The notes beneath the pieces are model-generated. The model was not told the origin of the DNA. It did no database searches and saw nothing but the letters and a program-made list of their open reading frames with translations. Of a stretch of DNA of 64,000 bases, positions 20,231-46,219 are shown piece after piece (positions within the stretch are counted from its first letter, which is position 1; each line of letters starts with the position of its first letter). Position numbers and translations under genes: made by a program. The stretch is from assembly GCA_020055645.1 (NCBI GenBank), contig CM034548.1, positions 33,964,201 to 34,028,200 on the forward strand. The letters are read 5' to 3'. This DNA comes from Tomocerus qinae (lineage: Eukaryota; Arthropoda; Collembola; Entomobryomorpha; Tomoceridae).

Positions 20231-20529
20231 CTGTTTGCCAACAGTTTATTATTCTTCAATCTTATTAGAGAGGTTTCGATACAGGCTTATTTGGATAAAA
20301 GCGTCAAGTTTGGATTGTAAAACTTGCTATAACTTCACGTTGGTTGTGCTACATACAAATATCACCAAGATAAAAGCTTGTAGGCGGCCTGCTACAAGCA
20401 CTTCAAAGTATTGTAGCTTGTACCATATTCAAAGCAAGCGGGTATTTTATATTCAAATGTTATTGGTTTAAAATCAAAAACAACTTCCACCTTCAAATGT
20501 TGCTTTATTGCATTTAACAGCCCTGTTCA

Positions 20530-21313
20530 GCTGAATTGTCAACTGGCTCAAGAAAAGAGAAAATATGAAAAATGGTAAGTTAATTGCAAAACAACCGAAC
20601 AAGGTTATCACAGTTTATCACAGACTAAAGGTTACTTTTATTAAAATAACTGGTATAAACGCTAATTTTCATCAATGTAGGCCGACACAGAAGAGGAAGT
20701 TCAACACCAAAATGTTGAACACGAGCAAGTATCATCTCGAAAAAAGGCGTTCCGTTTTACGTCAAAAGACGAAATTGAATTGTTAAAAGAAGTTTCCAGC
20801 ATCGAACCATACAAGGTACCGAAGAAGAATTCGATGAAAAAGCTCAACTGTTAACTGACTTTTTGGAACTACTAAGAGAAATTGAACAAGTAAAGGGAAA
20901 GAAAATAAATAATGAACAAGAGAGTAAAATGCTTGGTGAGACCATTCGTGATGCAGCTATGAAAGGGACGGTTAGAAAGCTAGACAATGATAACACGGGT
21001 AAGAAATTCATTTTATCAACAACAGAATTTGTAGTTCCAAATTTAAAACTATTTAATAATAAATTCTGTATACATTGCTTGTTTAGACACACAAAGTAAA
21101 AAGATCACAAAGGACGATCGATTGCTGTTCATCATGGAAGAACGACAAAAAACGGATGCAGAGATCAGAGAAAAGCAATTGGCACTTGAAGAAAAAAAGT
21201 TACAATTGGAGGAAAGACGACTGCATTTGGAAGAAGAAAAATGGAAAGCGGAGTCAGAGGAAAAAAAGATGTTACTCGAACTGCTCAAAGACAAAATACA
21301 AAAAGTGGAGTAA
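20530..21313 (+). pseudogene. Decayed Myb/SANT-like partner gene of a PIF/Harbinger element (left arm)
   Basis: After an acceptor at about 20681, the sequence encodes a segment with FTSKDEIELLKEV, like the start of the Myb/SANT-like domain carried by Harbinger-type accessory proteins. It runs directly, and out of frame, into TEEEFDEKAQLLTDFLELL, the region that normally lies well downstream, so the middle is deleted. A long charged coiled coil (EEKKLQLEERRLHLEEEKWK) closes it, as in this family. The gene is convergent with the transposase relic at 21395-21890, the usual arrangement in these transposons. Confidence 0.6.
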
Positions 21314-21394
21314 TTTGTGTATTATGAGAAATAAATGACTTTCTAATAAATTTTTGTATCATTTGTAAATATATAATATTTATTCACACATCAC

Positions 21395-21890
21395 CTAATC
21401 TGAAATTAGCTGTATTAGACAAATAGCTTTCCAATGTAGGAGGTTGGACATCAAAGTACATACTAGTCTGACAACTATACAAGCATGTGTGACAGTTTTT
21501 TAATAGAGCTCCTATGACATAATACTTTCCAATTGGTTACAAATACAGTTTCAGATTTTTCTTGAAGTCCAAAAATGCAAATAAAGATGCTATCTTACCA
21601 AATTCCCATTCTACACAAATACGTCCTACTGACATTGTCTTGTTGAAATTGCCTTGGTCGTTAGTCAATTGTCTACCTTTGTACGGTCTAATTATTTGTG
21701 ATCTAATAGAATATGCTGGATCCCCATAAATGACATACTGTCTGTTATTACTAGGAATATTTGCATCTATGATCCTCAGTAAGCTACTTTCACTTAAGGT
21801 AATTCCTCGCATGGGTAGAGCCACTCTTTTTCCGCTGTGCCGACTATGAGCCACTGTAGACTTTACTTCAGGATTTAAACAAAACAAATA
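21395..21890 (-). pseudogene. PIF/Harbinger (HARBI1-like, DDE_Tnp_4) transposase fragment, left arm
   Basis: The C-terminal half of a DDE transposase of the HARBI1 type. Recognisable blocks are YGDPAYS (second catalytic Asp), EWEFGKI (catalytic Glu) and FLDFKKNLKLYL. An in-frame TAA stop follows, then PIGKYYVIGALLKNCHTCLY. The stop replaces a position that is usually Gln in this family and is a single C-to-T step from CAA. The N-terminal half with the first catalytic Asp is missing, and a hairpin element (22055-22262) sits where it should be. Not functional. Confidence 0.75.
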
Positions 21891-22054
21891 TCCTCCGAGT
21901 TCTCCAATGGCTCACGGTCAATACCACTTACGTTCGTGTCGCACTTCTCGCTTATCATCTCCTGTCAAACATTTCAATTTCCAATTCAGCTGGAGTTGGG
22001 AATGATAGAATGGGAATGGAATTGGTGTGAGTTGTGTGATTATGTGGTAACTGG

Positions 22055-22262
22055 CCGGCGACAAGTAATAGCTCGAAAAAAAGAGAATTTTGTAACTTGG
22101 TTCCGGGCGCGGACGATTTTTCGGAATTTGCCCTGTGGCAGCCGTACTGATGTCCATTTCAAATGCCTTAAAATTTTTTATCGAAATCAAATTTCGAAAT
22201 TTTTTTTCCGCCCGGAACCAAGTTACAAAATTGTCTTTTTTTTGGAGCTACTACTTGTCCTT
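22055..22262. repeat. Hairpin MITE in the transposase relic, left arm
   Basis: Arms of about 60 bp: TTTTGTAACTTGGTTCCGGG on the left mirrors CCCGGAACCAAGTTACAAAA on the right, flanked by GACAAGTAATAGCTC / GAGCTACTACTTGTC. The mirror copy in the right arm is at 43304-43511. A much diverged relative may lie at 62500-62690. Confidence 0.75.
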
Positions 22263-22904
22263 GTAGCTATCATAGAACTTGACTTGCAGCGACACAAAGT
22301 TAGCTGAAATTCAACACAATATTTACATTGTATGGATCATTCTTAAGTTTTAAAACAAAAAAGATTTACGGAGAAACTTAGGATAAAACAAGGCATCAAG
22401 AGACATCAATATCTTCAAGAAAAATTCACATTATTATTATACAATGAATGCATCCCTGGGTTAGAAACAGCACTTTTATAAAAATCAAACCAAGTTTAAT
22501 AGATAAGAATTTTAAAATTCAATAGAAGTAGTGGTGGTCGGTAGTTGTAGGTGGAAGGTTAATTCTTCCCATGATATCATAGGCCAAAATTATTATACTA
22601 CTAACAGAATTTTACGCGATGCCTGTTTGTGGCATACATGCGCAATGCGTGCTGCAGAACGAAGGAAGAGAAAAGTTTGTTTGTGTGTGTTTATTGTATA
22701 GGCATAATCATAATCATTGCTTCACGTCAACACCACTTGCACTCGCCAAGTAGTAAGCGCGCCGCCACCCACACACACGTGAAATTTTTACAAATATTTA
22801 AATAACTCAGAGATTACTTAACCGATTTGAATGAAATCTCTTTTAAAGAACAGATTGCCTATAATTTAGTAGAATCTTCTAATAAATCTAAATACGGTAA
22901 TCAA

Positions 22905-23410
22905 AAATCTGCCCGTGAGAGAAGCGAGAAATTAAAAAATCTAAGATCGCATTTGCCATTTAAATTTGCATTGCAAGCCTAGCCGCCGAGAAGACCTGTT
23001 ACAGAAGAAAAATTGTTGTTGCTGCTTTCAAATGCTTCACGGATGGTATCCAGGTTTTCTTTTGTAACAACTAATAGTCGATATCTGTATTACACTGGAC
23101 ATCTAGTGAGTCTGCAGATTTTAAGTGAATTTGATGGCGGGATCCTTCGTACCATGAAGGTATTTACAAACTACTGCTATTTAGTGATGAATGCCTTCAT
23201 GGTACGAAGGATCCCGCCGTCAAATTCACTTATAATCACATCAAATTGGCTAAAACCTGCAGACTCACTAGATGTCCAGTGTAATACAGATAAAGACTAT
23301 TTTTGTCCCCCACTAAGTCAGCAATTTTTATAAAATTGCAAATTTAAATGGCAAAAGACAGTCTTAGATATTTTAATTTCTATCTTCTCTCATGGGCATG
23401 TTTCGGGGGC
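22905..23410. repeat. Nested hairpin transposon (left arm)
   Basis: The outer arms carry GCCATTTAAATTTGCA (left) and GCAAATTTAAATGGC (right), with GAGAGAAG/CTTCTCTC further out. The inner arms are almost perfect over about 80 bp around GGCGGGATCCTTCGTACCAT and ATGGTACGAAGGATCCCGCC. The right end reads GGGGGCACCCTGTACA, the kind of terminus common in arthropod Tc1/mariner-like or related elements. The mirror copy is at 42148-42661. Confidence 0.75.
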
Positions 23411-23496
23411 ACCCTGTACATTAAGTATGGATTCCACACCTATATAGCAACCACAAGGGAGTATTAAAATGCATGTTAAAACTGTCGTTACATTTG

Positions 23497-23795
23497 CAAA
23501 AATCCCCCCGAACCAAGCATTTGGTTTTCATGGTACTCACAGATTTGGAATCCAGAAATATCCAATTTACAGATTCTATAATTCTGATGTTCGACATTTC
23601 CTTTAAATAGTTTTAAAATCAAATTCCTAAAGAAATTTTAAATTGTCCAATTTTTAGGAATTTGATTTTTTTAAACTTTTTAAAGGAACAATATCACACA
23701 TCAGAATTATAGAATCGTTATTGAATATTCCTGGATTCCAAACCTTTAAATACCATCAAAATCAAATGCATGGTTCTGGAGGAATTTCGAAAAAA
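23497..23795. repeat. Hairpin MITE with about 110-bp arms (left arm)
   Basis: The arms share GATTCTATAATTCTGATGT / ACATCAGAATTATAGAATC and an inner AATCAAATTCCTAAA / TTTAGGAATTTGATT core. The outermost GAACCAAGCATTTGG / CCAAATGC-like ends are less perfect. The mirror copy is at 41763-42061. The sequence just beyond it (GGCTGACCCGAATTCTTATG) has a diverged relative near 62025. Confidence 0.7.
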
Positions 23796-24510
23796 ATTGT
23801 GAATTTCAAATTCGTTGGAGGCTGACCCGAATTCTTATGCATGGAATATCCGGCCACGCTCAACAATAATAGTGTAAAAGTTAGTTTCTAGGAAACAAAA
23901 GGCAAGTTTATGATTGATGATTAATTAGAAGATAGCTTTACACACTCACTATAAAATAGCAAAATGCCATTGCTTTTTAGTACAAAATAGATTTGCATTG
24001 TCGTCAATGTCATAGTAACGTTCGAATCGAATTTCTCACCGCATTTCATTTGGTTTTTGAAAATCATCGAATATTTTACAATACATTGACGTCTATGTGA
24101 AATAGGAGAATTTTCCACACACGGCGGCTTGCGAGGTTAGAGCGTCGAAAACGACCCGCCAAAAGGTGAAATATAATTATTAGTTTATGTGACCTTCTTG
24201 GGGATTTTATACAATCGACTGAATATAGTAAAAAAGTTAGCGTTATCAAAAAAAGCATGAAAAATTCTCCTTGAAAAGTTTTAAAAAGCAAATTCGAATT
24301 TTTTGTTATTCTTTCTATTTTTCATGAGCACATCAAATGTAAGCATTCCAGATAGACTTTCATTATTATTAAACTACTTCGAAGTGATGAATCACCCAAA
24401 ATGCACAAACATTTCAAAGTACACCTGGTAATGCTACAGACTTAACAGAAACAAACCTAAAAACGTGAAAAAAAATTTGAAAACTTCAGAATTAAATAAT
24501 TGTTTCTCTT

Positions 24511-24820
24511 CCCTACGGGGTGAAAGAATATTTCGAATTTAAATATAGACACCTCCATAGCGGTAAGCTGATACCCCGCTATATAGGGGGTTTGCCCCGA
24601 TGTCAGGAAAATATTAATATTGATTGTGGATATTGGCATTAATCCCTACGGGGTAAAAGAATATGGCGAACTCAAATATGGGCACCACTATAGCGATAAA
24701 CTAATACTCCGCTATATAGGGGGTTTACCCAATATCGAGGAAATGCAAATATTGGATTTGGATATTATTGGATATTGGTAATAATACCTACTTGGTAAGA
24801 GAATATGCCGACCACAAATA
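24511..24820. repeat. Tandem repeat, about 135-145-bp unit, 2.3 copies (left arm)
   Basis: CCCTACGGGGT followed by AAAGAATAT starts two units (24513 and 24645), and CCGCTATATAGGGGGTTT recurs in both. A third, partial unit begins near 24788 (CCTACTTGGTAAGAGAATAT). Mirrored at 40738-41047. Confidence 0.7.
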
Positions 24821-25153
24821 TGGACACAAAATTAGCCTAACCATTGGCATATTGAATAGTTTTTAATTGACCACTTAAAGCTACAATCATTATATTGGCC
24901 TAATTATTGGTTAAGTATACATGGCCTAATTGCTGGTCAAATATACACGGCCTAATTGATGTTAAATGCTCTAAAAACTATAAACCGGACACGGATTATG
25001 TTCCCTGGATTTGCGTGTGAGAAAGTAGGGGATAGTAGGGTTAGTGTGTTGGCTCTACTATCTCACATTTATTGCCAGCCAAATCCCTCTAGAATCCTGT
25101 CGTGCGAATTTATTCGCATTTTTATAAAGGCCTGAGTATAGTGACGGCCTGGG

Positions 25154-25688
25154 CGTACAGGACGGTCTAATGGTGTAAAAACCTGGCTGGCTGTCCGCAT
25201 TCTTGGGTTCGAATCCTAAGAGCGCCTCAGGTTGTGTGTTAGTTAGTCTGGAACTGGGAGAAGCTGTCATTGCCGTATATTCGTTATTAGCATTGATTTG
25301 CCTATCTTGGTGACAATATGACTATCTATCCTTACCCTGTCTGCAGTGTGCAGATTGCTCTCTTGGTTAGGTGTACACTACGAGTTTACCTAGTGATATA
25401 CTGGACTGAGGAGCACATGCGAAGGGATGCGGGAGGTTGCGATGACTGTCACACCTAATGTGGTCAGCTCACCTAACCTTGCCACCTAAGCACAGATAGG
25501 TAGAGTACGGGACTGTGTAGGGCTGTACCACATAATGGTTCAGTACCCCTCACCAAAGTCTCTTCGTGTAAGTCTGTACACTCAGTAAAGTTGTCCGGGA
25601 GTCACTGCAAGTAAGCCACCCCAGGCTTGAGCGGTAGCATAGCTCTACTACTATAGTAGATGCTGTGCTCTCCCCCTAACACACACAC
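25154..25688 (+). mobile_element. tRNA-derived SINE, 535 bp, only in the left arm
   Basis: The head resembles a tRNA with RNA polymerase III promoter boxes: GGTCTAATGGTG (A-box-like) and a perfect B box GGTTCGAATCC about 40 bp on. The tail is an ACACACACAC tract. It is bounded by a perfect 16-bp target-site duplication ATAGTGACGGCCTGGG (25138-25153 and 25689-25704). The right arm at 40405-40420 has a single copy of that 16-mer, so the empty site is preserved. The insertion accounts exactly for the 551-bp offset between the arms at this point. Confidence 0.92.
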
Positions 25689-26054
25689 ATAGTGACGGCC
25701 TGGGTATATTGACGGGCTTGTTAGATATAATAAAAGTTTTAAAGAATTACAAGAATGTAATACCAAGCGTTTTTTATACCGAAAGAAAAATTGTGTATAG
25801 AATATGAAATAACCGCCAATTTTGTATGTACGATGCGCTCTGCACTGTACGACGCGGACACAACATGCAATCAGCAATGCCATAGCAATGTGATTTTCTT
25901 AGTTTTGTAGTTGCTTTGCTACCTGCTGAGAGAGAGGCGAGCGAGGAAAGTGACGGACACAACGGAACACTTCGCACTGTTCGCACTGCACTGTTGACTG
26001 TCAACAAATGACAAGTTTGACACTCTCATTCAATTGTCAATAACTATTGTCAAA

Positions 26055-28496
26055 ATGCTTAGCCGTTTTAGATGTGAACAAAGTGAAGATTTGGGACGAT
26101 ATTTAGTATCTGTGAAGGACTTTGACCACGGGGATGTTGTTTGGGAAGAGTCTCCATTGTTTTCTGCGCCATGTCATCGTCAACTATTACCGGTTCCAAA
26201 TTACGAAGACTGGATATTTACTTGTGTGGGCTGCTTCAGAAAAATAGAGAATGCTGCAATGAAGTGCCCTAAATGTCTTTGGCCTTGTTGCTCGGTCAAT
26301 TGTTCAAAGGTAAAAAGGACTATTGTTGATTGATGATTGTGATTAGTAGTTGATAAGCATAATATAGTCATCAATGACCAATTCATTTTAATATTTACTT
26401 ATTGCATAATGAGAAATTAAAAATGAATTATTTTGTGCTACAGAGTAAAAAGCACAAAAATTATGAGTGCGACGTCTTCTCCAGATTAGGCATTACAGCT
26501 GTTACTGGAAACTTTTCGAAGTTAATGTCTCTGAGAATCGTTTTGTCTAAAGACGTAGAACCTACCAAATATGAAAAGTTCTTACACCTTTGTTCTGACT
26601 ATAATGAACCGGATAAGGTTTTCCAGAAGGAAATAGACGATGATGTATTTCAATTTTTTGACTCAAGACTGTGAAATGGATATCTCAATAGACGAAGTAT
26701 CTCAACTATTGGCAGCAACTCGAATCAACAATTTCTCAATCTGTTATGGAGATGAACATTCCACAGAGTAAGGATCAAAAACAAAAATATTTAATCATCT
26801 TCGATTTATTATAAGATCATTTATTAATAAATTGTTTTGTGATTTATATAGACACGCCGGTGTAGCCCTCTTTTTGTACACCAGCTTACTTTCAAACTCA
26901 TGTTGCCCTAATGTTGGGTTCACATTTGTCAAAAATGTGGACAGGAGTGGAGACGTGCATTGGAATATCCGCCTTTATGCAAGAAAGCCGATCAAAAAGG
27001 GCAGCATTTTGTCGATTGCTTATAATCCTATGGTATTACAATTTGGCACTGTCCCCCGACAAATTCAAATTCAAAAATCCCATAATTTTATTTGCAAATG
27101 CGAGCGTTGCCTGGACAAGACTGAAGGGGGAACATACTTCCAAGCCTTAGTGTGCCCGAAATGTAAGAATAAGAAAGGCTATATGCTGCAAATGAATCCC
27201 GTTGAGATTAACAGCCCTTGGAAATGTGATAAATGCAATAACATGGAGGATGCCCACAAAGTGAGAGAGATAATCAACAGCCTCGAACCAGTCCCGCGTT
27301 CATTGCTTCGTAAGACAGTATCTCACGCCCGTTCTTTGAAGTTGGCAGACACTTTTATTGTCGAGCAGAAGCATCTTCTTCACGAAAACCATTTCTTAAT
27401 GTATCAATGCGCTTACCTTTGGCTATTCGGAAGCGACTTTTGTCGCGATCTCATTTCCTCTGATGAGAACACTAAAAATCTTTTCATAAAGATTATGACA
27501 AGAGTGAAAAGATATCTGCCGATGTGTGAGAATTTCATGCCATCTAATATTATCAGTAAGTTTTGTTCCATTTATTTATCTCCGTCCATTTCCATGTATG
27601 CTTCACGAATTATCCACCTCAAATGTTTTCGATTCCACTTCATCGTCTTCCTTATAAATTCGAAGGAAGACGAATTTGTAAAGGAAGACGACAATAATAT
27701 TATACTCAGAATTAACTCCCACGCAGTCATACCTTAGAGCTAGGTAATCATATCGATTACGAAATACCCGGTTATTTAGCCTGACTTTGCCTGGTTGCGG
27801 TGGATGAAGTAGATCGATGGTTAAAATTGAACATTCAAATCAATTTCTTCCTGAATAAAATTAATTTTGTCCAGGACAAATGTGGACAAAATTATTTTCG
27901 CACGGACAAAAGTAATTTCATCCAGGACAATTTTCATTTCGTCCGTATTCAACCCTGCCGGTGGCATGAGACTGGTTTCTAGTCTTCGTTATTTGTAACT
28001 GAAAAAGTAACCTCAAATAACTTGACATAAAAATGTTTTATTTTTTCGTAATCTAAATTTCAAATTATTGTTCGTTGGGCCTCAGTTAGCTATTTTTTAC
28101 ATCATACAAACTTGCAAAAGAATTTTTGCTTAAAAGTTTTTCTATATTGCAGACAACATGCATTTGATGGTAGCAAGTACATACGCAGCATACTTTTTCA
28201 AGTCTGAAGATATGAAAGTATGTATTCAAGGAAATCACCCAACATGTTTCAAATTAAGAATCTGCAATCGTATTGTGGCCTATTTGAAGTCGAGTTTGCT
28301 CTGGTTGAAAATGAAATGCAACAGTTCAACGTATGAACGCGACGTGGACGACTTAAATCTGATGATTATTTCTTGGTCAAAGCCAGTGCAAGAGTTTGAG
28401 AATGAAATACGAACTTCGGAAGAACAAGCACTTGAGGCCATCCGCTTTCTATTCGATCCGAACATGCACAGTATTTCAAGATGTACAATATTATAA
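26055..28496 (+). pseudogene. SET/MYND (SMYD-like) gene, left copy, frameshifted
   Basis: Exons 26055-26309, 26444-26767, 26852-27555 and 28153-28496 follow those of the intact right-arm gene. Exon 2 has six T instead of five in CAATTTTTTGACTC (about 26651-26660). This shifts the frame and stops translation after VFQFFDSRL, before the SET core. The other parts (MYND cysteines, NSCCPN, post-SET CKCERC) are preserved. Either this copy is recently inactivated or the extra T is a homopolymer sequencing error, in which case both copies would be intact. The third intron carries a hairpin element related to 5800-5919. Confidence 0.75.
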
Positions 28497-28752
28497 GATT
28501 GTGATGAGAATGAAATAGTACGACATAAATATTGGCATTCTGTCCCAATTGAAATCAATTATTTGGGTAATAAGAAATCCGTTAAATTCCTGGGCTTGTA
28601 AAATCCACTAAACTAAAAATGTTTCCTCTGTAAAAGTAAATTATAAAAATCTGTCATTTGGCGTTGGCGATAAGTAAGTTCAAATCAATTGTTAATTTAT
28701 TGTTACAAAATGAAGTAACATGTATCAACAATAGAATTACTAATACTAATAT

Positions 28753-28970
28753 ACCATATAACATAGAAGGGACATGCCCTATACCAGGGACGTATACGGG
28801 ACCCGATATCCGACTATACGCGACCCGACAATCCGCGACCCGACAATCCGCGACCCGACAATCCGACGATACGCGACCCGACAATACGGTTGTCCCCCCT
28901 ATACCATAGAACATAGAAGGGACATGTCCTATGCCATATAACATAGAAGGGACATGCCCTATAAGCTTTT
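28753..28970. repeat. Compound minisatellite (left arm)
   Basis: Three units containing ACATAGAAGGGACATG(C/T)CCTAT surround a central array of about four 15-bp units (CGCGACCCGACAATC). Open frames across it are a by-product of the repeats. Mirrored at 37140-37357. Confidence 0.8.
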
Positions 28971-29130
28971 CCATCATGTACCTTTATTTATCCTTGAAGG
29001 CATTTTATATTCATTGGTCGGTTGTAAAGTAGAGCCCCGAGTGGCGAATATGAATATCTGCAATGCCTAAGCAGTAAGCATCACAAATATTCATATTCCC
29101 GCGTCTCGGTGCTATACCTTAACCTCGCGG

Positions 29131-30432
29131 TTATTTCTTTAAGGAGGCCTTCTTTACAGACTTGCCGCATTATTTTCCCAGGTGTCGTATTGTAGATTTC
29201 AAGTGCAGATTGCAGATTGAACTCCTTCAAGAAGTTCGGAAATCTCTCCAAATGGCGCATGGGGTCAATGTTGTTTAATTGAGTTTGGAGTACGGGAGGA
29301 TCGTAAAAATATAGCCAGTGTTCGATGACCAGCCGGCTGGTTGGTTAAAATGGCTGGCTAAAATGGCTGGCCGGCTGGTTGAAATTCTTTGTTAGCCAGT
29401 GGCTGAAATGGCCAAAATGGCCAAAAGTAATCAAATGGGGCTATGTGAACTGAGAAAATTATCCTTGATTTGACGGGAAATTTAAAAAACCATGATTTTT
29501 GGCCATTTCAGCCGTTTTAGCCGGCTGGCTGGTCAAAATCATTTTCAGCCGACTAAAATAGAACACTGAATATAGCTCCTGCCCCGGAGGAAAGTGTGGA
29601 CTGTTGTGGCCTCGCTCTTCTCCTCCGTGCGATATCGCAATGGATTAGACAAAATGGCACAGTGAAGCCATTTCACACACATAACACGCATCGTATAGCC
29701 TAGTGTATTAAAACTGCTACCAGTCGTATCTGGATTTTTATAATGCTTGAGCGGGTCTATTGCATGTTGAAAATTCTTATAGGTTAATTTCGTCCCATTT
29801 AACCATTAAGATTTTACACCATAAAATAGGCCCGCGCAAACATTATAAAAATCCTGATACGACTGGTGGCAGATTTAATACATTGGGGCATACGATGCGT
29901 GTTTTGTGTGATTTCACACCTCATCAAACCAAGACTTCCTAAATTCCATTAATATTATTAAGTGGTGTGCAACACCGCTTTATAGGAATGCCTGATCTGT
30001 CTGTCTGTCTGTTAGCACGATAACTCAAATCAACTCAAACTTACTGTTTGTGATGTAGGGATGAAAAGCGAGACCCCTACCTGTGGGCGTGGTCCAAATA
30101 TTTAAAATTGGTGTAACTTTAGTTATTGACAATGTAGAACGTCATGAAATGGTTCGCTCTAAAAGGTTATGTGTTAGGCCATGTCAAGGTCAAGTCACAC
30201 GTGTAAAAAGGTCAAAGGTCATTGAAAAAATTCACTAAAACCGTCATGTAACGTCAAATAATTAGTTCAATCTTTTTATGCAATTTCATACCACTTTTTT
30301 ACATCCATTTGGACATGGTTTATTATTTCACTAGGCCTCCACAGTACTAATTCTGAATTTCAAAATGATTACGCATATTAAGGTTCAGGAGTGGTTCAAA
30401 ATACGGGGAAATTCAATTAGTGGCAGGTTCTG
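29131..30432 (+). mobile_element. Dispersed 1.3-kb non-autonomous element, left-arm copy
   Basis: Closely related to 60441-61829 and mirrored at 35678-36979. Shared landmarks are GACTTGCCGCATTATTTTCC, AATGGCGCATGGGGTCAATG, a central hairpin around CAGTCGTATCTGGATTTTTA / TAAAAATCCTGATACGACTG, and GGTTCAAAATACGGGG near the end. No protein is encoded. This copy is interrupted by a hAT-type MITE at 29316-29568. Confidence 0.8.
29316..29568. mobile_element. hAT-type MITE nested in the 1.3-kb element (left arm)
   Basis: Termini are CAGTGTTC and GAACACTG. The flanks are a perfect 8-bp duplication AATATAGC (29308-29315 and 29569-29576). The third copy of the host element at about 60609 has the uninterrupted site AATATAGCTCC. 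The 8-bp duplication and CAGTG ends are diagnostic of hAT transposons. The interior is rich in GGCTGGCT and AAAATGGCC motifs. Confidence 0.9.
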
Positions 30433-31301
30433 GGGAAGTATCTATGGTATGGCTACGATTTAAAAAAACAGCTACACATATGAATAATAGAAAATTGGCT
30501 ATATTCTCCCCCCTTGTCAAAAAAGGTGTTTTGGTAAAATGACAATAATTTGAGTTATAGACATCGTAGAAAGTCGTGCTTTACAGTTATGAGAAACTGA
30601 TATTTGCCAACTTCCACTCGCTGACATATGCCACTTTACTCTTTTAGATCCGAAGTTACAGACAGTTTTCTAAAAAATCCCTACTCTTTCCATGTAAATT
30701 CCTACTATTTTCCGTCCAAATGAGTTTCTCTGAAAGGGTCAAATGACAACTGATCCAACCTGTACAACTAACAACCTGCAGTGCTGACCTATAGCGACTG
30801 TACATTGGCTCCAATTTCATCGATAGACCGTTGACTATTTAGTAGATCAATTTTTGATGTCCAAGCGTGTTGAAATGTAAAACAAAATTATAACTGGGTA
30901 GTCTTTATTACACAAAGATGCATACAAACATTTATACATGAATACCGACAGAATTCCATGCCCAGCTAAAGTGCATTGTTTTATGCATGGGTTGTATATA
31001 GATTAAAACATCGAAAGCCGTTTGTTCGAATGACGTTTTATGGCAAAATATTCAACCATTGATAATGTTATGTTAGATAACCTACAAATATCAAAAATAC
31101 ACCCGATCCAAATCCAAGCCAATGTATTTGCCATTTCAAATCTGTATTACACAAGAAAATCTGGATAGAACTCTGGAAAAAATATCAAAAATGGCAAACA
31201 AATCAGGTTCAGACTTCAGACAGTACAGAGTGAGAGTAGAGAAGAAATATTGAGGCAGAACTCAATTCAATCATCACCATCTTTCAGTCAACCCGCTTTA
31301 A
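30433..31301. other. Inner left arm, no gene seen
   Basis: AT-rich sequence between the dispersed element and the loop, mirrored at 34808-35677. No motif recognised. Confidence 0.5.
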
Positions 31302-31634
31302 GGGCTAATTCCATTGACACGCTTCACGCCGAAAGCAGCAAGCTGCACGCAGCAAATCTGATTACACTGGACCAGCAGTTTGCAGCGGCAGCATTTTTTT
31401 TGCTGCCGCTTTTTTTCTCTTTCCGTCGATGTTTTTTTCGAGAAAGCGTAAAAACGCGCGAGTGATTCCACTGCGATTTTTTCTGCTCAAGCGGCGAAAA
31501 ACTTTTACGCGCCGACTAAAAACTAGAAGCTTCTTCTGAACAGGCCGAAACTGCCTGTATATCGCGTTTTCCAAGTCATAAACTAATTTATCAAGGTATT
31601 CCATCGGTTTTTGAATTGTGCAAGAGGATAAATC

Positions 31635-34590: not shown

Positions 34591-35677
34591 AGAATTTTCC
34601 GCGTTGGGTGATCCCACCTACTTGAAGACGCAGCTTGCAGCTACCATCTAGCTTTCTGCTGCTTCTTTCTGGCGCGTACTAATAGTGTATTTAATTACGC
34701 ATTTTTTAGCTGGGATCATGCAGCAGCAAAATTGGAAAAACCTGCTAGCTGCTAGAAGCTAGACGCTTGCTGCGAGAAGTGTGTTGTGTGGGTGAACGCC
34801 TTAGCCCTTAAAGCGGGTTGACTGAAAGATGGTGATGATTGAATTGAGTTCTGCCTCAATATTTCTTCTCTACTCTCACTCTGTACTGTCTGAAGTCTGA
34901 ACCTGATTTGTTTGCCATTTTTGATATTTTTTCCAGAGTTCTATCCAGATTTTCTTGTGTAATACAGATTTGAAATGGCAAATACATTGGCTTGGATTTG
35001 GATCGGGTGTATTTTTGATATTTGTAGGTTATCTAACATAACATTATCAATGGTTGAATATTTTGCCATAAAACGTCATTCGAACAAACGGCTTTCGATG
35101 TTTTAATCTATATACAACCCATGCATAAAACAATGCACTTTAGCTGGGCATGGAATTCTGTCGGTATTCATGTATAAATGTTTGTATGCATCTTTGTGTA
35201 ATAAAGACTACCCAGTTATAATTTTGTTTTACATTTCAACACGCTTGGACATCAAAAATTGATCTACTAAATAGTCAACGGTCTATCGATGAAATTGGAG
35301 CCAATGTACAGTCGCTATAGGTCAGCACTGCAGGTTGTTAGTTGTACAGGTTGGATCAGTTGTCATTTGACCCTTTCAGAGAAACTCATTTGGACGGAAA
35401 ATAGTAGGAATTTACATGGAAAGAGTAGGGATTTTTTAGAAAACTGTCTGTAACTTCGGATCTAAAAGAGTAAAGTGGCATATGTCAGCGAGTGGAAGTT
35501 GGCAAATATCAGTTTCTCATAACTGTAAAGCACGACTTTCTACGATGTCTATAACTCAAATTATTGTCATTTTACCAAAACACCTTTTTTGACAAGGGGG
35601 GAGAATATAGCCAATTTTCTATTATTCATATGTGTAGCTGTTTTTTTAAATCGTAGCCATACCATAGATACTTCCCC

Positions 35678-36979
35678 AGAACCTGCCACTCATTGAATTT
35701 CCCCGTATTTTGAACCACTCCTGAACCTTAATATGCGTAATCATTTTGAAATTCAGAATTAGTACTGTGGAGGCCTAGTGAAATAATAAACCATGTCCAA
35801 ATGGATGTAAAAAAGTGGTATGAAATTGCATAAAAAGATTGAACTAATTATTTGACGTTACATGACGGTTTTAGTGAATTTTTTCAATGACCTTTGACCT
35901 TTTTACACGTGTGACTTGACCTTGACATGGCCTAACACATAACCTTTTAGAGCGAACCATTTCATGACGTTCTACATTGTCAATAACTAAAGTTACACCA
36001 ATTTTAAATATTTGGACCACGCCCACAGGTAGGGGGTCTCGCTTTTCATCCCTACATCACAAACAGTAAGTTTGAGTTGATTTGAGTTATCGTGCTAACA
36101 GACAGACAGACAGATCAGGCATTCCTATAAAGCGGTGTTGCACACCACTTAATAATATTAATGGAATTTAGGAAGTCTTGGTTTGATGAGGTGTGAAATC
36201 ACACAAAACACGCATCGTATGCCCCAATGTATTAAATCTGCCACCAGTCGTATCAGGATTTTTATAATGTTTGCGCGGGCCTATTTTATGGTGTAAAATC
36301 TTAATGGTTAAATGGGACGAAATTAACCTATAAGAATTTTCAACATGCAATAGACCCGCTCAAGCATTATAAAAATCCAGATACGACTGGTAGCAGTTTT
36401 AATACACTAGGCTATACGATGCGTGTTATGTGTGTGAAATGGCTTCACTGTGCCATTTTGTCTAATCCATTGCGATATCGCACGGAGGAGAAGAGCGAGG
36501 CCACAACAGTCCACACTTTCCTCCGGGGCAGGAGCTATATTCAGTGTTCTATTTTAGTCGGCTGAAAATGATTTTGACCAGCCAGCCGGCTAAAACGGCT
36601 GAAATGGCCAAAAATCATGGTTTTTTAAATTTCCCGTCAAATCAAGGATAATTTTCTCAGTTCACATAGCCCCATTTGATTACTTTTGGCCATTTTGGCC
36701 ATTTCAGCCACTGGCTAACAAAGAATTTCAACCAGCCGGCCAGCCATTTTAGCCAGCCATTTTAACCAACCAGCCGGCTGGTCATCGAACACTGGCTATA
36801 TTTTTACGATCCTCCCGTACTCCAAACTCAATTAAACAACATTGACCCCATGCGCCATTTGGAGAGATTTCCGAACTTCTTGAAGGAGTTCAATCTGCAA
36901 TCTGCACTTGAAATCTACAATACGACACCTGGGAAAATAATGCGGCAAGTCTGTAAAGAAGGCCTCCTTAAAGAAATAA
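35678..36979 (-). mobile_element. Dispersed 1.3-kb element, right-arm copy
   Basis: Mirror of 29131-30432, with the same nested hAT-type MITE (36542-36794) at the same site. Confidence 0.8.
36542..36794. mobile_element. hAT-type MITE (right arm)
   Basis: Mirror of 29316-29568 with the same ends and target duplication, so the insertion predates the palindrome. Confidence 0.9.
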
Positions 36980-37139
36980 CCGCGAGGTTAAGGTATAGCA
37001 CCGAGACGCGGGAATATGAATATTTGTGATGCTTACTGCTTAGGCATTGCAGATATTCATATTCGCCACTCGGGGCTCTACTTTACAACCGACCAATGAA
37101 TATAAAATGCCTTCAAGGATAAATAAAGGTACATGATGG

Positions 37140-37357
37140 AAAAGCTTATAGGGCATGTCCCTTCTATGTTATATGGCATAGGACATGTCCCTTCTATGTT
37201 CTATGGTATAGGGGGGACAACCGTATTGTCGGGTCGCGTATCGTCGGATTGTCGGGTCGCGGATTGTCGGGTCGCGGATTGTCGGGTCGCGTATAGTCGG
37301 ATATCGGGTCCCGTATACGTCCCTGGTATAGGGCATGTCCCTTCTATGTTATATGGT
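37140..37357. repeat. Compound minisatellite (right arm)
   Basis: Mirror of 28753-28970. The number of 15-bp units appears equal in both arms, notable because such arrays usually vary quickly. Confidence 0.8.
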
Positions 37358-37613
37358 ATATTAGTATTAGTAATTCTATTGTTGATACATGTTACTTCAT
37401 TTTGTAACAATAAATTAACAATTGATTTGAACTTACTTATCGCCAACGCCAAATGACAGATTTTTATAATTTACTTTTACAGAGGAAACATTTTTAGTTT
37501 AGTGGATTTTACAAGCCCAGGAATTTAACGGATTTCTTATTACCCAAATAATTGATTTCAATTGGGACAGAATGCCAATATTTATGTCGTACTATTTCAT
37601 TCTCATCACAATC

Positions 37614-40054
37614 TTATAATATTGTACATCTTGAAATACTGTGCATGTTCGGATCGAATAGAAAGCGGATGGCCTCAAGTGCTTGTTCTTCCGAAGTTCG
37701 TATTTCATTCTCAAACTCTTGCACTGGCTTTGACCAAGAAATAATCATCAGATTTAAGTCGTCCACGTCGCGTTCATACGTTGAACTGTTGCATTTCATT
37801 TTCAACCAGAGCAAACTCGACTTCAAATAGGCCACAATACGATTGCAGATTCTTAATTTGAAACATGTTGGGTGATTTCCTTGAATACATACTTTCATAT
37901 CTTCAGACTTGAAAAAGTATGCTGCGTATGTACTTGCTACCATCAAATGCATGTTGTCTGCAATATAGAAAAACTTTTAAGCAAAAATTCTTTTGCAAGT
38001 TTGTATGATGTAAAAAATAGCTAACTGAGGCCCAACGAACAATAATTTGAAATTTAGATTACGAAAAAATAAAACATTTTTATGTCAAGTTATTTGAGGT
38101 TACTTTTTCAGTTACAAATAACGAAGACTAGAAACCAGTCTCATGCCACCGGCAGGGTTGAATACGGACGAAATGAAAATTGTCCTGGATGAAATTACTT
38201 TTGTCCGTGCGAAAATAATTTTGTCCACATTTGTCCTGGACAAAATTAATTTTATTCAGGAAGAAATTGATTTGAATGTTCAATTTTAACCATCGATCTA
38301 CTTCATCCACCGCAACCAGGCAAAGTCAGGCTAAATAACCGGGTATTTCGTAATCGATATGATTACCTAGCTCTAAGGTATGACTGCGTGGGAGTTAATT
38401 CTGAGTATAATATTATTGTCGTCTTCCTTTACAAATTCGTCTTCCTTCGAATTTATAAGGAAGACGATGAAGTGGAATCGAAAACATTTGAGGTGGATAA
38501 TTCGTGAAGCATACATGGAAATGGACGGAGATAAATAAATGGAACAAAACTTACTGATAATATTAGATGGCATGAAATTCTCACACATCGGCAGATATCT
38601 TTTCACTCTTGTCATAATCTTTATGAAAAGATTTTTAGTGTTCTCATCAGAGGAAATGAGATCGCGACAAAAGTCGCTTCCGAATAGCCAAAGGTAAGCG
38701 CATTGATACATTAAGAAATGGTTTTCGTGAAGAAGATGCTTCTGCTCGACAATAAAAGTGTCTGCCAACTTCAAAGAACGGGCGTGAGATACTGTCTTAC
38801 GAAGCAATGAACGCGGGACTGGTTCGAGGCTGTTGATTATCTCTCTCACTTTGTGGGCATCCTCCATGTTATTGCATTTATCACATTTCCAAGGGCTGTT
38901 AATCTCAACGGGATTCATTTGCAGCATATAGCCTTTCTTATTCTTACATTTCGGGCACACTAAGGCTTGGAAGTATGTTCCCCCTTCAGTCTTGTCCAGG
39001 CAACGCTCGCATTTGCAAATAAAATTATGGGATTTTTGAATTTGAATTTGTCGGGGGACAGTGCCAAATTGTAATACCATAGGATTATAAGCAATCGACA
39101 AAATGCTGCCCTTTTTGATCGGCTTTCTTGCATAAAGGCGGATATTCCAATGCACGTCTCCACTCCTGTCCACATTTTTGACAAATGTGAACCCAACATT
39201 AGGGCAACATGAGTTTGAAAGTAAGCTGGTGTACAAAAAGAGGGCTACACCGGCGTGTCTATATAAATCACAAAACAATTTATTAATAAATGATCTTATA
39301 ATAAATCGAAGATGATTAAATATTTTTGTTTTTGATCCTTACTCTGTGGAATGTTCATCTCCATAACAGATTGAGAAATTGTTGATTCGAGTTGCTGCCA
39401 ATAGTTGAGATACTTCGTCTATTGAGATATCCATTTCACAGTCTTGAGTCAAAAATTGAAATACATCATCGTCTATTTCCTTCTGGAAAACCTTATCCGG
39501 TTCATTATAGTCAGAACAAAGGTGTAAGAACTTTTCATATTTGGTAGGTTCTACGTCTTTAGACAAAACGATTCTCAGAGACATTAACTTCGAAAAGTTT
39601 CCAGTAACAGCTGTAATGCCTAATCTGGAGAAGACGTCGCACTCATAATTTTTGTGCTTTTTACTCTGTAGCACAAAATAATTCATTTTTAATTTCTCAT
39701 TATGCAATAAGTAAATATTAAAATGAATTGGTCATTGATGACTATATTATGCTTATCAACTACTAATCACAATCATCAATCAACAATAGTCCTTTTTACC
39801 TTTGAACAATTGACCGAGCAACAAGGCCAAAGACATTTAGGGCACTTCATTGCAGCATTCTCTATTTTTCTGAAGCAGCCCACACAAGTAAATATCCAGT
39901 CTTCGTAATTTGGAACCGGTAATAGTTGACGATGACATGGCGCAGAAAACAATGGAGACTCTTCCCAAACAACATCCCCGTGGTCAAAGTCCTTCACAGA
40001 TACTAAATATCGTCCCAAATCTTCACTTTGTTCACATCTAAAACGGCTAAGCAT
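37614..40054 (-). CDS. SET/MYND (SMYD-like) protein, right copy, intact
   Basis: Four exons (40054-39800, 39665-39343, 39258-38555, 37957-37614), all in phase, encode about 541 residues. A MYND zinc finger lies at residues 57-94 (C-x2-C, C-x2-C, CSVNC, H-x4-C), formed across the first splice. The SET C-terminal core shows NSCCPN (about 208-213, normally NHSCxPN) and KGSILSIAYNP, the substrate/cofactor pocket region, followed by a cysteine post-SET motif CKCERC. An extra CPKC/CDKC pair lies downstream. The layout is that of the arthropod SMYD-type (SmydA-like) proteins, many of which are diverged methyltransferase-like proteins. The replacement of His in NHSC and of the usual Tyr-rich block makes catalytic activity uncertain. 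Its twin in the other arm is frameshifted. Confidence 0.88.
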
Positions 40055-40737
40055 TTTGACAATAGTTATTGACAATTGAATGAGAGTGTCAAACTTGTCA
40101 TTTGTTGACAGTCAACAGTGCAGTGCGAACAGTGCGAAGTGTTCCGTTGTGTCCGTCACTTTCCTCGCTCGCCTCTCTCTCAGCAGGTAGCAAAGCAACT
40201 ACAAAACTAAGAAAATCACATTGCTATGGCATTGCTGATTGCATGTTGTGTCCGCGTCGTACAGTGCAGAGCGCATCGTACATACAAAATTGGCGGTTAT
40301 TTCATATTCTATACACAATTTTTCTTTCGGTATAAAAAACGCTTGGTATTACATTCTTGTAATTCTTTAAAACTTTTATTATATCTAACAAGCCCGTCAA
40401 TATACCCAGGCCGTCACTATACTCAGGCCTTTATAAAAATGCGAATAAATTCGCACGACAGGATTCTAGAGGGATTTGGCTGGCAATAAATGTGAGATAG
40501 TAGAGCCAACACACTAACCCTACTATCCCCTACTTTCTCACACGCAAATCCAGGGAACATAATCCGTGTCCGGTTTATAGTTTTTAGAGCATTTAACATC
40601 AATTAGGCCGTGTATATTTGACCAGCAATTAGGCCATGTATACTTAACCAATAATTAGGCCAATATAATGATTGTAGCTTTAAGTGGTCAATTAAAAACT
40701 ATTCAATATGCCAATGGTTAGGCTAATTTTGTGTCCA

Positions 40738-41047
40738 TATTTGTGGTCGGCATATTCTCTTACCAAGTAGGTATTATTACCAATATCCAATAATATCCAA
40801 ATCCAATATTTGCATTTCCTCGATATTGGGTAAACCCCCTATATAGCGGAGTATTAGTTTATCGCTATAGTGGTGCCCATATTTGAGTTCGCCATATTCT
40901 TTTACCCCGTAGGGATTAATGCCAATATCCACAATCAATATTAATATTTTCCTGACATCGGGGCAAACCCCCTATATAGCGGGGTATCAGCTTACCGCTA
41001 TGGAGGTGTCTATATTTAAATTCGAAATATTCTTTCACCCCGTAGGG
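40738..41047. repeat. Tandem repeat, about 135-145-bp unit (right arm)
   Basis: Mirror of 24511-24820, with the same AAACCCCCTATATAGCGG core in two units. Confidence 0.7.
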
Positions 41048-41762
41048 AAGAGAAACAATTATTTAATTCTGAAGTTTTCAAATTTTTTTTCACGTTTTTA
41101 GGTTTGTTTCTGTTAAGTCTGTAGCATTACCAGGTGTACTTTGAAATGTTTGTGCATTTTGGGTGATTCATCACTTCGAAGTAGTTTAATAATAATGAAA
41201 GTCTATCTGGAATGCTTACATTTGATGTGCTCATGAAAAATAGAAAGAATAACAAAAAATTCGAATTTGTTTTTTAAAACTTTTCAAGGAGAATTTTTCA
41301 GGCTTTTTTTGATAACGCTAACTTTTTTACTATATTCAGTCGATTGTATAAAATCCCCAAGAAGGTCACATAAACTAATAATTATATTTCACCTTTTGGC
41401 GGGTCGTTTTCGACGCTCTAACCTCGCAAGCCGCCGTGTGTGGAAAATTCTCCTATTTCACATAGACGTCAATGTATTGTAAAATATTCGATGATTTTCA
41501 AAAACCAAATGAAATGCGGTGAGAAATTCGATTCGAACGTTACTATGACATTGACGACAATGCAAATCTATTTTGTACTAAAAAGCAATGGCATTTTGCT
41601 ATTTTATAGTGAGTGTGTAAAGCTATCTTCTAATTAATCATCAATCATAAACTTGCCTTTTGTTTCCTAGAAACTAACTTTTACACTATTATTGTTGAGC
41701 GTGGCCGGATATTCCATGCATAAGAATTCGGGTCAGCCTCCAACGAATTTGAAATTCACAAT

Positions 41763-42061
41763 TTTTTTCGAAATTCCTCCAGAACCATGCATTTGATTTT
41801 GATGGTATTTAAAGGTTTGGAATCCAGGAATATTCAATAACGATTCTATAATTCTGATGTGTGATATTGTTCCTTTAAAAAGTTTAAAAAAATCAAATTC
41901 CTAAAAATTGGACAATTTAAAATTTCTTTAGGAATTTGATTTTAAAACTATTTAAAGGAAATGTCGAACATCAGAATTATAGAATCTGTAAATTGGATAT
42001 TTCTGGATTCCAAATCTGTGAGTACCATGAAAACCAAATGCTTGGTTCGGGGGGATTTTTG
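41763..42061. repeat. Hairpin MITE (right arm)
   Basis: Mirror of 23497-23795 with the same AATTCTGATGT arms. Confidence 0.7.
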
Positions 42062-42147
42062 CAAATGTAACGACAGTTTTAACATGCATTTTAATACTCC
42101 CTTGTGGTTGCTATATAGGTGTGGAATCCATACTTAATGTACAGGGT

Positions 42148-42661
42148 GCCCCCGAAACATGCCCATGAGAGAAGATAGAAATTAAAATATCTGAGACTGT
42201 CTTTTGCCATTTAAATTTGCATTTTTAAATTTTATAAAAATTGCTGACTTAGTGGGGGACAAAAAATAGTCTTTATCTGTATTACACTGGACATCTAGTG
42301 AGTCTGCAGGTTTTAGCCAATTTGATGTGATTATAAGTGAATTTGACGGCGGGATCCTTCGTACCATGAAGGCATTCATCACTAAATAGCAGTAGTTTGT
42401 AAATACCTTCATGGTACGAAGGATCCCGCCATCAAATTCACTTAAAATCTGCAGACTCACTAGATGTCCAGTGTAATACAGATATCGACTATTAGTTGTT
42501 ACAAAAGAAAACCTGGATACCATCCGTGAAGCATTTGAAAGCAGCAACAACAATTTTTCTTCTGTAACAGGTCTTCTCGGCGGCTAGGCTTGCAATGCAA
42601 ATTTAAATGGCAAATGCGATCTTAGATTTTTTTTAATTTCTCGCTTCTCTCACGGGCAGAT
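42148..42661. repeat. Nested hairpin transposon (right arm)
   Basis: Mirror of 22905-23410 with an extra 8 bases near 42226 (TTTATAAAATTTAAAAATGC when read in left-arm orientation). Confidence 0.75.
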
Positions 42662-43303
42662 TTTTGATTACCGTATTTAGATTTATTAGAAGATTCTACT
42701 AAATTATAGGCAATCTGTTCTTTAAAAGAGATTTCATTCAAATCGGTTAAGTAATCTCTGAGTTATTTAAATATTTGTAAAAATTTCACGTGTGTGTGGG
42801 TGGCGGCGCGCTTACTACTTGGCGAGTGCAAGTGGTGTTGACGTGAAGCAATGATTATGCTTATGCCTATACAATAAACACACACAAACAAACTTTTCTC
42901 TTCCTTCGTTCTGCAGCACGCATTGCGCATGTATGCCACAAACAGGCATCGCGTAAAATTCTGTTAGTAGTATAATAATTTTGGCCTATGATATCATGGG
43001 AAGAATTAACCTTCCACCTACAACTACCGACCACCACTACTTCTATTGAATTTTAAAATTCTTATCTATTAAACTTGGTTTGATTTTTATAAAAGTGCTG
43101 TTTCTAACCCAGGGATGCATTCATTGTATAATAATAATGTGAATTTTTCTTGAAGATATTGATGTCTCTTGATGCCTTGTTTTATCCTAAGTTTCTCCGT
43201 AAATCTTTTTTGTTTTAAAACTTAAGAATGATCCATACAATGTAAATATTGTGTTGAATTTCAGCTAACTTTGTGTCGCTGCAAGTCAAGTTCTATGATA
43301 GCT

Positions 43304-43511
43304 ACAAGGACAAGTAGTAGCTCCAAAAAAAAGACAATTTTGTAACTTGGTTCCGGGCGGAAAAAATTTCGAAATTTGATTTCGATAAAAAATTTTAAGG
43401 CATTTGAAATGGACATCAGTACGGCTGCCACAGGGCAAATTCCGAAAAATCGTCCGCGCCCGGAACCAAGTTACAAAATTCTCTTTTTTTCGAGCTATTA
43501 CTTGTCGCCGG
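43304..43511. repeat. Hairpin MITE in the transposase relic, right arm
   Basis: Mirror of 22055-22262, with the same CCGGAACCAAGTTAC arms and a few point differences in the loop. Confidence 0.75.
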
Positions 43512-43675
43512 CCAGTTACCACATAATCACACAACTCACACCAATTCCATTCCCATTCTATCATTCCCAACTCCAGCTGAATTGGAAATTGAAATGTTTG
43601 ACAGGAGATGATAAGCGAGAAGTGCGACACGAACGTAAGTGGTATTGACCGTGAGCCATTGGAGAACTCGGAGGA

Positions 43676-44182
43676 TATTTGTTTTGTTTAAATCCTGAAG
43701 TAAAGTCTACAGTGGCTCATAGTCGGCACAGCGGAAAAAGAGTGGCTCTACCCATGCGAGGAATTACCTTAAGTGAAAGTAGCTTACTGAGGATCATAGA
43801 TGCAAATATTCCTAGTAATAACAGACAGTATGTCATTTATGGGGATCCAGCATATTCTATTAGATCACAAATAATTAGACCGTACAAAGGTAGACAATTG
43901 ACTAACGACCAAGGCAATTTCAACAAGACAATGTCAGTAGGACGTATTTGTGTAGAATGGGAATTTGGTAAGATAGCATCTTTATTTGCATTTTTGGACT
44001 TCAAGAAAAATCTGAAACTGTATTTGTAACCAATTGGAAAGTATTATGTCATAGGAGCTCTATTAAAAAACTGTCACACATGCTTGTATAGTTGTCAGAC
44101 TAGTATGTACTTTGATGTCCAACCTCCTACATTGGAAAGCTATTTGTCTAATACAGCTAATTTCAGATTAGGTGATGTGTGA
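43676..44182 (+). pseudogene. PIF/Harbinger transposase fragment, right arm
   Basis: Mirror copy of the left-arm transposase relic with the identical premature TAA after KNLKLYL and the same missing N-terminal half. Coding resemblance continues past the stop to NTANFRLGDV before the next stop. Confidence 0.75.
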
Positions 44183-44252
44183 ATAAATATTATATATTTA
44201 CAAATGATACAAAAATTTATTAGAAAGTCATTTATTTCTCATAATACACAAA

Positions 44253-45035
44253 TTACTCCACTTTTTGTATTTTGTCTTTGAGCAGTTCGAGTAACATCTT
44301 TTTTTCCTCTGACTCCGCTTTCCATTTTTCTTCTTCCAAATGCAGTCGTCTTTCCTCCAATTGTAACTTTTTTTCTTCAAGTGCCAATTGCTTTTCTCTG
44401 ATCTCTGCATCCGTTTTTTGTCGTTCTTCCATGATGAACAGCAATCGATCGTCCTTTGTGATCTTTTTACTTTGTGTGTCTAAACAAGCAATGTATACAG
44501 AATTTATTATTAAATAGTTTTAAATTTGGAACTACAAATTCTGTTGTTGATAAAATGAATTTCTTACCCGTGTTATCATTGTCTAGCTTTCTAACCGTCC
44601 CTTTCATAGCTGCATCACGAATGGTCTCACCAAGCATTTTACTCTCTTGTTCATTATTTATTTTCTTTCCCTTTACTTGTTCAATTTCTCTTAGTAGTTC
44701 CAAAAAGTCAGTTAACAGTTGAGCTTTTTCATCGAATTCTTCTTCGGTACCTTGTATGGTTCGATGCTGGAAACTTCTTTTAACAATTCAATTTCGTCTT
44801 TTGACGTAAAACGGAACGCCTTTTTTCGAGATGATACTTGCTCGTGTTCAACATTTTGGTGTTGAACTTCCTCTTCTGTGTCGGCCTACATTGATGAAAA
44901 TTAGCGTTTATACCAGTTATTTTAATAAAAGTAACCTTTAGTCTGTGATAAACTGTGATAACCTTGTTTGGTTGTTTTGCAATTAACTTACCATTTTTCA
45001 TATTTTCTCTTTTCTTGAGCCAGTTGACAATTCAG
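44253..45035 (-). pseudogene. Decayed Myb/SANT-like partner gene, right-arm copy
   Basis: Mirror copy of the left-arm pseudogene at 20530-21313, with the same internal deletion and the same coiled-coil end. The decay therefore predates the duplication. Confidence 0.6.
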
Positions 45036-45574
45036 CTGAACAGGGCTGTTAAATGCAATAAAGCAACATTTGAAGGTGGAAGTTGTTTTTGATTTTAAAC
45101 CAATAACATTTGAATATAAAATACCCGCTTGCTTTGAATATGGTACAAGCTACAATACTTTGAAGTGCTTGTAGCAGGCCGCCTACAAGCTTTTATCTTG
45201 GTGATATTTGTTTGTAGCACAACCAACGTGAAGTTATAGCAAGTTTTACAATCCAAACTTGAAGCTTTTATCCAAATAAGCCTGTATCGAAACCTCTCTA
45301 ATGTTAATAATTTGTTGAGTCGCACATGCTAGAGTCTACTAGTAAATTTATAAATCTCTATATAATAAAATTATTTATTCCTATGTCGCAGGATCTACCT
45401 ATCTATGTATCTATCTATGCCATGGACAATGCGGCATTTTGTTGCAATGCGCATGCGCGTATACAATGCATGTTTCATAAAACAAGGAAGTCCAATATGG
45501 GTAAATATTAGCTTATTTCGAAACTAGACAATGTTAATATGCATAATCATTTTGAAATTCAGCAATGGTACTGG

Positions 45575-46215: not shown

Positions 46216-46219
46216 AATA

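Follow-up and report, generated by a model that had tools for sequence, protein, structure and literature searches.

A 64,000-bp stretch of the Tomocerus qinae (Collembola) genome (assembly GCA_020055645.1, contig CM034548.1, positions 33,964,201 to 34,028,200; "the window" below, with positions counted from its first base) contains a large, nearly perfect palindrome, an inverted segmental duplication in which two copies of a SMYD-like gene lie on either side of a short loop. The palindrome is real in the sequence, and the loop is probably a single degenerate DNA transposon with its ends at or close to the word GGGCTAA. We tentatively favor the idea that the duplication is recent and formed around this transposon by a template switch during repair.

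Structure of the palindrome and differences between its arms

Comparison of the window with itself by BLAST found two long inverted blocks on the minus strand, both with E = 0. Positions 20264-25153 are the inverse of 45302-40405 (99.61% identical over 4900 columns, with 7 mismatches and 4 gaps), and 25689-31308 are the inverse of 40420-34801 (99.95% over 5621 columns, with 1 mismatch and 2 gaps). Ten kb at 99.61-99.95% identity cannot have arisen by chance, and the two blocks together make up a single palindrome with the following parts, the arms being defined by self-BLAST and alignment:

20264..31308, + strand, left arm, 11,045 bp including a SINE-like (short interspersed nuclear element-like) insert
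31309..34800, no strand, loop, 3492 bp, probable degenerate DNA transposon
34801..45302, - strand, right arm, 10,502 bp
25154..25688 (25138..25688 with its target duplication), + strand, SINE-like insert, 535 bp, present in the left arm only according to the arm alignment

The locus has the features of a large near-identical palindrome: the arms are more than 99% identical, the loop between them is short and unique, and the outer flanks are unlike one another. The arms differ by eight substitutions, six small indels (the outer part has four, of 2, 2, 1, and 7 bp, and the inner part two, of 1 bp each; five of the six lie in homopolymer runs) and the 535-bp insert. A one-base gap at 31307/34801 was dropped from this count as an edge effect of the alignment at the loop boundary. 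The initial annotation of this DNA had placed the outer ends at 20264 and 45302, which is exact to the base, and had described mirror arms of about 11.0 and 10.5 kb, as found here. Its list of differences was nearly right and included the insert, but no 8-bp indel was found (there are a 1-bp and a 7-bp indel at a distance of 37 bp), and the two homopolymer indels of 2 bp had been missed.

The insert is bounded by a 16-bp direct repeat, ATAGTGACGGCCTGGG, at 25138-25153 and 25673-25688, the target duplication. It includes GGTTCGAATCC, which we take to be an RNA polymerase III B-box-like word, and it ends in a CA-rich tail; the assignment to SINEs is presumptive. It has no further match within the 64-kb window. 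Since a target-duplicated insert is present in one arm only, the two arms must have had separate histories.

Outer flanks and the possibility of misassembly

Self-comparison of the window found no inverted homology between the 20-kb left and 19-kb right flanks, which have three short repeats in common, all in direct orientation. Inverted alignment of the outer flanks is non-significant at 250 and 1000 bp, and at 60 bp it gives p = 0.02 or 0.1 depending on the scoring. The recognizable genes are different on the two sides: the left flank has a histidine-phosphatase fragment, an F-box open reading frame (ORF), and C2H2 fingers, and in the right flank there are a bestrophin fragment and a pair of related ORFs, one of which has a sub-threshold F-box match. 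With no more than 35% identity over 66 residues, the left and right F-box ORFs are relatives rather than alleles. Searches of PDB with two of the flank ORFs found no match.

These observations bear on whether the palindrome could be an assembly artefact in which two haplotypes, a fold-back read or an amplification-chimera read were joined head to head. The amplification of microscopic animals is known to produce many palindromic reads (PMC13265396), and palindrome counts in published assemblies include misassemblies (PMC7953838). The distance between the arms also suits an artefact, in that 0.76 substitutions per kb is low enough to be allelic, and the homopolymer indels resemble errors left by long reads. 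On the other hand, a head-to-head join should leave the same sequence in both flanks, which differ; an insert with a target duplication in one arm is impossible from a fold-back or chimeric read; and there are no Ns anywhere in the 64,000 bases. Haplotype joining, which had been offered earlier as one of three explanations, is therefore disfavored by flanks that lack inverted homology and whose genes differ apart from the distant F-box ORFs, and neither it nor a fold-back or chimeric read is adopted as the principal explanation. An artefact of any of these kinds has in our estimation a small chance of being correct.

Age of the palindrome and possible gene conversion

The overall difference of 0.76 substitutions per kb, together with the insert being in only one arm, supports the earlier suggestion of a recent event. 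The differences are unevenly distributed, with 1.44 substitutions per kb in the outer part of the arms and 0.18 in the inner part, and the outer 46% holds seven of the eight substitutions and 11 of all 14 small differences (binomial p = 0.029 and 0.028, with the boundary between the parts set post hoc at the insert). For substitutions and for all differences, respectively, a Kolmogorov-Smirnov test gives p = 0.026 and 0.015 and a longest-gap test p = 0.018 and 0.056. The scarcity of inner differences (p about 0.03, post hoc) weakly suggests that gene conversion has homogenized the inner part of the arms, and the earlier proposal that conversion maintains the palindrome is supported no further than this. 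Taken as a whole, the initial interpretation stands in part: a recent event is supported, conversion is weakly indicated, and the haplotype join is disfavored.

The same unevenness would suit an old palindrome whose arms are kept alike by ongoing arm-to-arm conversion in the manner of sex chromosomes, with the loop-end similarity described below being a decayed remnant of longer arms; in primate X palindromes spacer and arm sequence are reported to interchange (PMC8981503). The GC content of the arms (0.364-0.371) also slightly exceeds that of the flanks (0.341-0.350), as it does in the primate X palindromes (PMC8981503), but this excess lies within the local range of 0.29-0.41. Conversion of this kind has, moreover, not erased the SINE-like insert, the 7-bp indel, or a frameshift in the left gene copy, and near-identity gives way to dissimilarity abruptly at both ends of the arms. 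Such an old origin appears quite improbable. Three of the 14 small differences can be polarized, that at 26654 by its reading frame and those at 30073 and 30418 by comparison with related repeats at 61 kb; all three and the SINE-like insert are derived in the left arm, too few cases from which to conclude anything.

The loop and the arm-loop junctions

The loop differs in make-up from the arms, and its transposon-like character (a DNA-binding protein fragment, a private motif array, and inverted similarity of its ends) went unnoticed in the initial annotation. The features of the loop and of its junctions with the arms are:

31302..31308, + strand, GGGCTAA, the 7 bp of the left arm next to the loop, following TTAA; putative left transposon end
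31317..31353, + strand, left loop-end inverted similarity, imperfect, matching 34748-34784 at 27 of 37 positions, with a common 9-mer, GCAGCAAGC, within one base of register
31649..34587, no strand, GTCGAC array of nine palindromes, none in either arm
31727..31921, + strand, MADF (Myb/SANT-like) DNA-binding fragment, Pfam PF10545 (E = 1.2e-4; 22.8 bits against a cut-off of 22), whose frame appears broken further on
33041..33370, - strand, ORF, the last of the proposed minus-strand exons of the loop (from its translation)
34748..34784, - strand, right partner of the 31317..31353 similarity
34801..34807, - strand, GGGCTAA, the 7 bp of the right arm next to the loop; putative right transposon end

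When 20,000 intervals taken at random from the flanks and the left arm serve as the reference, the local score of the loop-end inverted similarity has p = 0.003 or 0.0008 depending on the scoring, and a common 9-mer so near to register has p = 0.0016. Both arms terminate in TTAA-GGGCTAA just outside the loop; of the left-arm positions, 0.2% have TTAAGG in their last 12 bases, against 6.3% for TTAA alone, words that were picked after they had been seen.

Transposons of the PIF/Harbinger group use TWA target sites and have ends that start with A or G (PMC4482050). The loop resembles such an element in some respects. GGGCTAA is present at both ends, but it lies inside the arms, and the similarity beyond it is imperfect. 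The trinucleotides flanking GGGCTAA are TAA on the left and TTA on the right, inverse complements of each other rather than the direct TWA duplication of a PIF/Harbinger insertion; inverse complements are expected if the right flank of the element is a reversed copy of the left. The MADF fragment fits the Myb/SANT-type DNA-binding protein that forms the second gene of these elements. The ORF at 33041..33370 reads by eye like the C-terminus of a HARBI1-like transposase; Pfam gave it no transposase match and only a sub-threshold one to DUF4501 (E = 0.25).

The GTCGAC array is peculiar to the loop, which holds nine of the window's 12 occurrences where 0.24 are expected under a first-order model, and the 21.5 kb of the arms have none. 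The bases flanking the nine loop sites are complementary in 9/9 cases at one step (the pairs being T-A, A-T, and G-C), in 7/9 at two, and in 6/9 at three and at four. Seven of the nine sites extend to perfect palindromes of 10-12 bp, and there are three different symmetric flanking pairs. These palindromes may be where the DNA-binding protein of the loop element itself binds.

Origin of the palindrome

Formation around the element is proposed because the arms abut the putative transposon ends. The event would have begun with a stretch of about 11 kb (A), carrying the SMYD-like gene and older repeats, beside a DNA transposon of about 3.5 kb. A break at the transposon, by excision or at a collapsed fork, would have been repaired by copying, and the copying strand, on reaching the far inverted end of the transposon, may have jumped to the corresponding near end and from there run through 10.5 kb of A in reverse. 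Joining of the new strand to unrelated sequence, presumably by end joining, would then have given the order A, transposon, reversed A. Sister-chromatid transposition could replace repair synthesis in this scheme, and transposition of this kind by maize Ac/Ds has been reported to yield inverted duplications (PMC8225341). Later changes would be the SINE-like insertion in the left arm, the one-base indel that breaks the left gene copy and, perhaps, conversion of the inner part of the arms. It is also conceivable, if doubtful, that the element was of the PIF/Harbinger kind and that its inverted ends were the turning point of repair synthesis, the palindrome having been built outward from an element that now acts as a stabilizing spacer.

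The transposon could in principle have arrived later, but chance insertion into the exact center of a ready-made 21-kb palindrome with no spacer is unlikely. Insertion with a 3-bp direct TWA duplication and GGG ends should leave TAA and TAA, and the TAA and TTA seen instead weigh against it.

Several observations count against formation around a transposon. The loop has no second copy in the 64-kb window, where only a single 39-bp match was found (E = 0.004), and Pfam found no transposase core, DDE_Tnp_4 included, among those ORF and exon pieces of the loop that were compared with it. In shuffle tests the similarity of the loop ends loses significance as the stretches compared grow longer, and it is non-significant for 500 bp (p = 0.12 and 0.20) and 1700 bp (0.48 and 0.32). 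The inverse complementarity of TAA and TTA is given by any palindrome, as its arms mirror each other, and GGGCTAA, lying inside perfect arms, looks no different from ordinary arm sequence or from a microhomology of 7 bp. An element of the TTAA type, or one whose ends are one base out of register, is compatible with later insertion into the palindrome. The boundary between left arm and loop is spanned, probably by chance, by an ORF at 31169-31465 whose PIN match is sub-threshold (E = 0.006). A misassembly, finally, retains a small probability.

An ordinary inverted segmental duplication would dispense with the transposon as a cause. It could arise by microhomology template switching (resembling microhomology-mediated break-induced replication or origin-dependent inverted-repeat amplification) or from a small inversion with staggered breaks, with the loop as the intervening stretch and the transposon a bystander. 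In human variants inverted duplications lie next to copy-neutral segments and have junctions with little or no homology (PMC10766186), staggered cuts are known to give inversions flanked by inverted duplications (PMC8225341), and at the present locus GGGCTAA could serve as the microhomology. Alone, however, this account leaves unexplained why the arms stop at the inverted loop-end similarity and why the loop has a private motif array; it may hold, though we are inclined to doubt it. Traces of the ancestral arrangement are scant; a search of both flanks for sequence carrying on from the ends of the loop or the arms gave, among the matches listed, only short ones of 18-55 columns.

The palindrome as a whole could also be imagined as a foldback-type transposable element of giant size, its terminal inverted repeats being 11 kb long; it does resemble one in that its long inverted arms enclose a spacer with remnants of DNA-binding coding sequence. 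Its arms, however, carry an intron-bearing host-like gene and several nested repeats, the window holds no second copy, and the junction sequences at the outer ends have by eye no direct repeat in common that could be a target duplication. This identification was rejected on the last ground and is very improbable.

The SMYD-like gene copies

The duplicated SMYD-like gene of the initial annotation is indeed present twice, but its reading frame is open in the right copy only; the frameshift of the left copy had not been noticed. The two copies, as delimited by translation, are:

26055..28496, + strand, left SMYD-like copy, four exons, frameshift at 26654
37614..40054, - strand, right SMYD-like copy, four exons with GT-AG introns, 541 open codons

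A one-base length difference in a homopolymer near 26654 leads to an early stop in the left copy, whose exons are otherwise as in the right one; the left copy is either a pseudogene or the site of a homopolymer assembly error. The locus thus displays two states of a duplicated gene together, one open and one frameshifted.

All 14 distinct sequences in PDB that match the right copy are SMYD1 or SMYD2 (E = 1.7e-9 to 8.6e-8), with similarity over the SET-MYND core of these methyltransferases. Pfam scored its SET domain at 19.2 bits, below the cut-off of 22.4, and did not report MYND. The NHxC motif of SET domains, which is cofactor-binding, is lacking, the protein having SNSCCPN where SMYD1 has NHDCWPN. 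About 300 bp downstream of the gene, at 28810-28865 (mirrored at 37245-37300), there are 3.7 copies of a 15-bp repeat, CCGACAATCCGCGAC.

Other features of the arms and flanks

Besides the gene, the arms contain older repeats, among them the sole DDE_Tnp_4 match found, which lies outside the loop:

21540..21911, - strand, PIF/Harbinger-type transposase fragment (DDE_Tnp_4), left arm, Pfam E = 7.1e-9; its mirror lies within the ORF at 43655-44029 on the + strand

Positions 29131-30431 in the arms and 60439-61825 in the right flank belong to one repeat family (about 80-93% identical, by piece), which contains a palindromic stretch in its interior and, at 61125-61620, a tandem duplication of 274 bp. 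In the right flank, the long ORFs at 47243-48757 and 58257-59657 are related to each other (E = 1.5e-21), and the N-terminus of the first, the one with the sub-threshold F-box match, is matched by the left-flank F-box ORF at 8862-10409 (E = 7e-7). A 30-bp tandem repeat (10487-10624, 4.6 copies) lies in an ORF that overlaps the end of this F-box ORF, and an AT-rich tandem array with a 31-bp unit (and periods of 95 and 126 bp) occupies 46217-46558, some 900 bp beyond the palindrome's right end. RNA-family and tRNA searches found none.

Comparison with known palindromes

The nearest case found is that of the breakpoint modules of the Anopheles gambiae inversion 2Rj (PMC1952172), which, like the present locus, belong to an arthropod and have inverted arms more than 99% identical, a spacer, and a patchwork of old transposon remnants; they are thought to be recent and unstable. 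Their arms are only 5.3 kb long around a 4-kb spacer and, in the account cited, have no coding capacity, whereas those described here are about 10.5-11 kb long and include one open gene copy. The mosquito modules are tied to an inversion, and none is known at the present locus.

Inverted intragenomic gene blocks also occur in other invertebrate genomes. In the collembolan Folsomia candida 11 (PMC5490193) or 16 (PMC7953838) palindromes have been counted, and in the rotifer Adineta vaga 17 and 19, respectively; unlike the T. qinae locus, these are collinear multi-gene blocks, and their synonymous divergence (Ks) covers a wide range in F. candida (PMC5490193, PMC7953838). The palindromes of primate X chromosomes have arms of similarly high identity (>99%) and a unique spacer, but they are larger (median arm 37 kb), are conserved among species, and have demonstrated gene conversion (PMC8981503). 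The maize Ac/Ds products share with the present locus an inverted duplication attached to a DNA transposon (PMC8225341); Ac/Ds is, however, a hAT element, whereas here the element is unclassified and the event itself is reconstructed. Among the matches listed for transposon-built palindromes in the literature, none concerned PIF/Harbinger elements; this does not prove that no such report exists.

Large near-identical palindromes are already known, and what would be new here is a central transposon as the cause. The birth of long palindromes is mostly reconstructed after the fact since their junctions decay; the event at this locus is young enough that every difference between the arms can be listed, and its junctions point to a testable cause, the central transposon. 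If this should prove general, many animal palindromes would owe their origin to transposons whose degenerate, fossil remains still lie at their centers.

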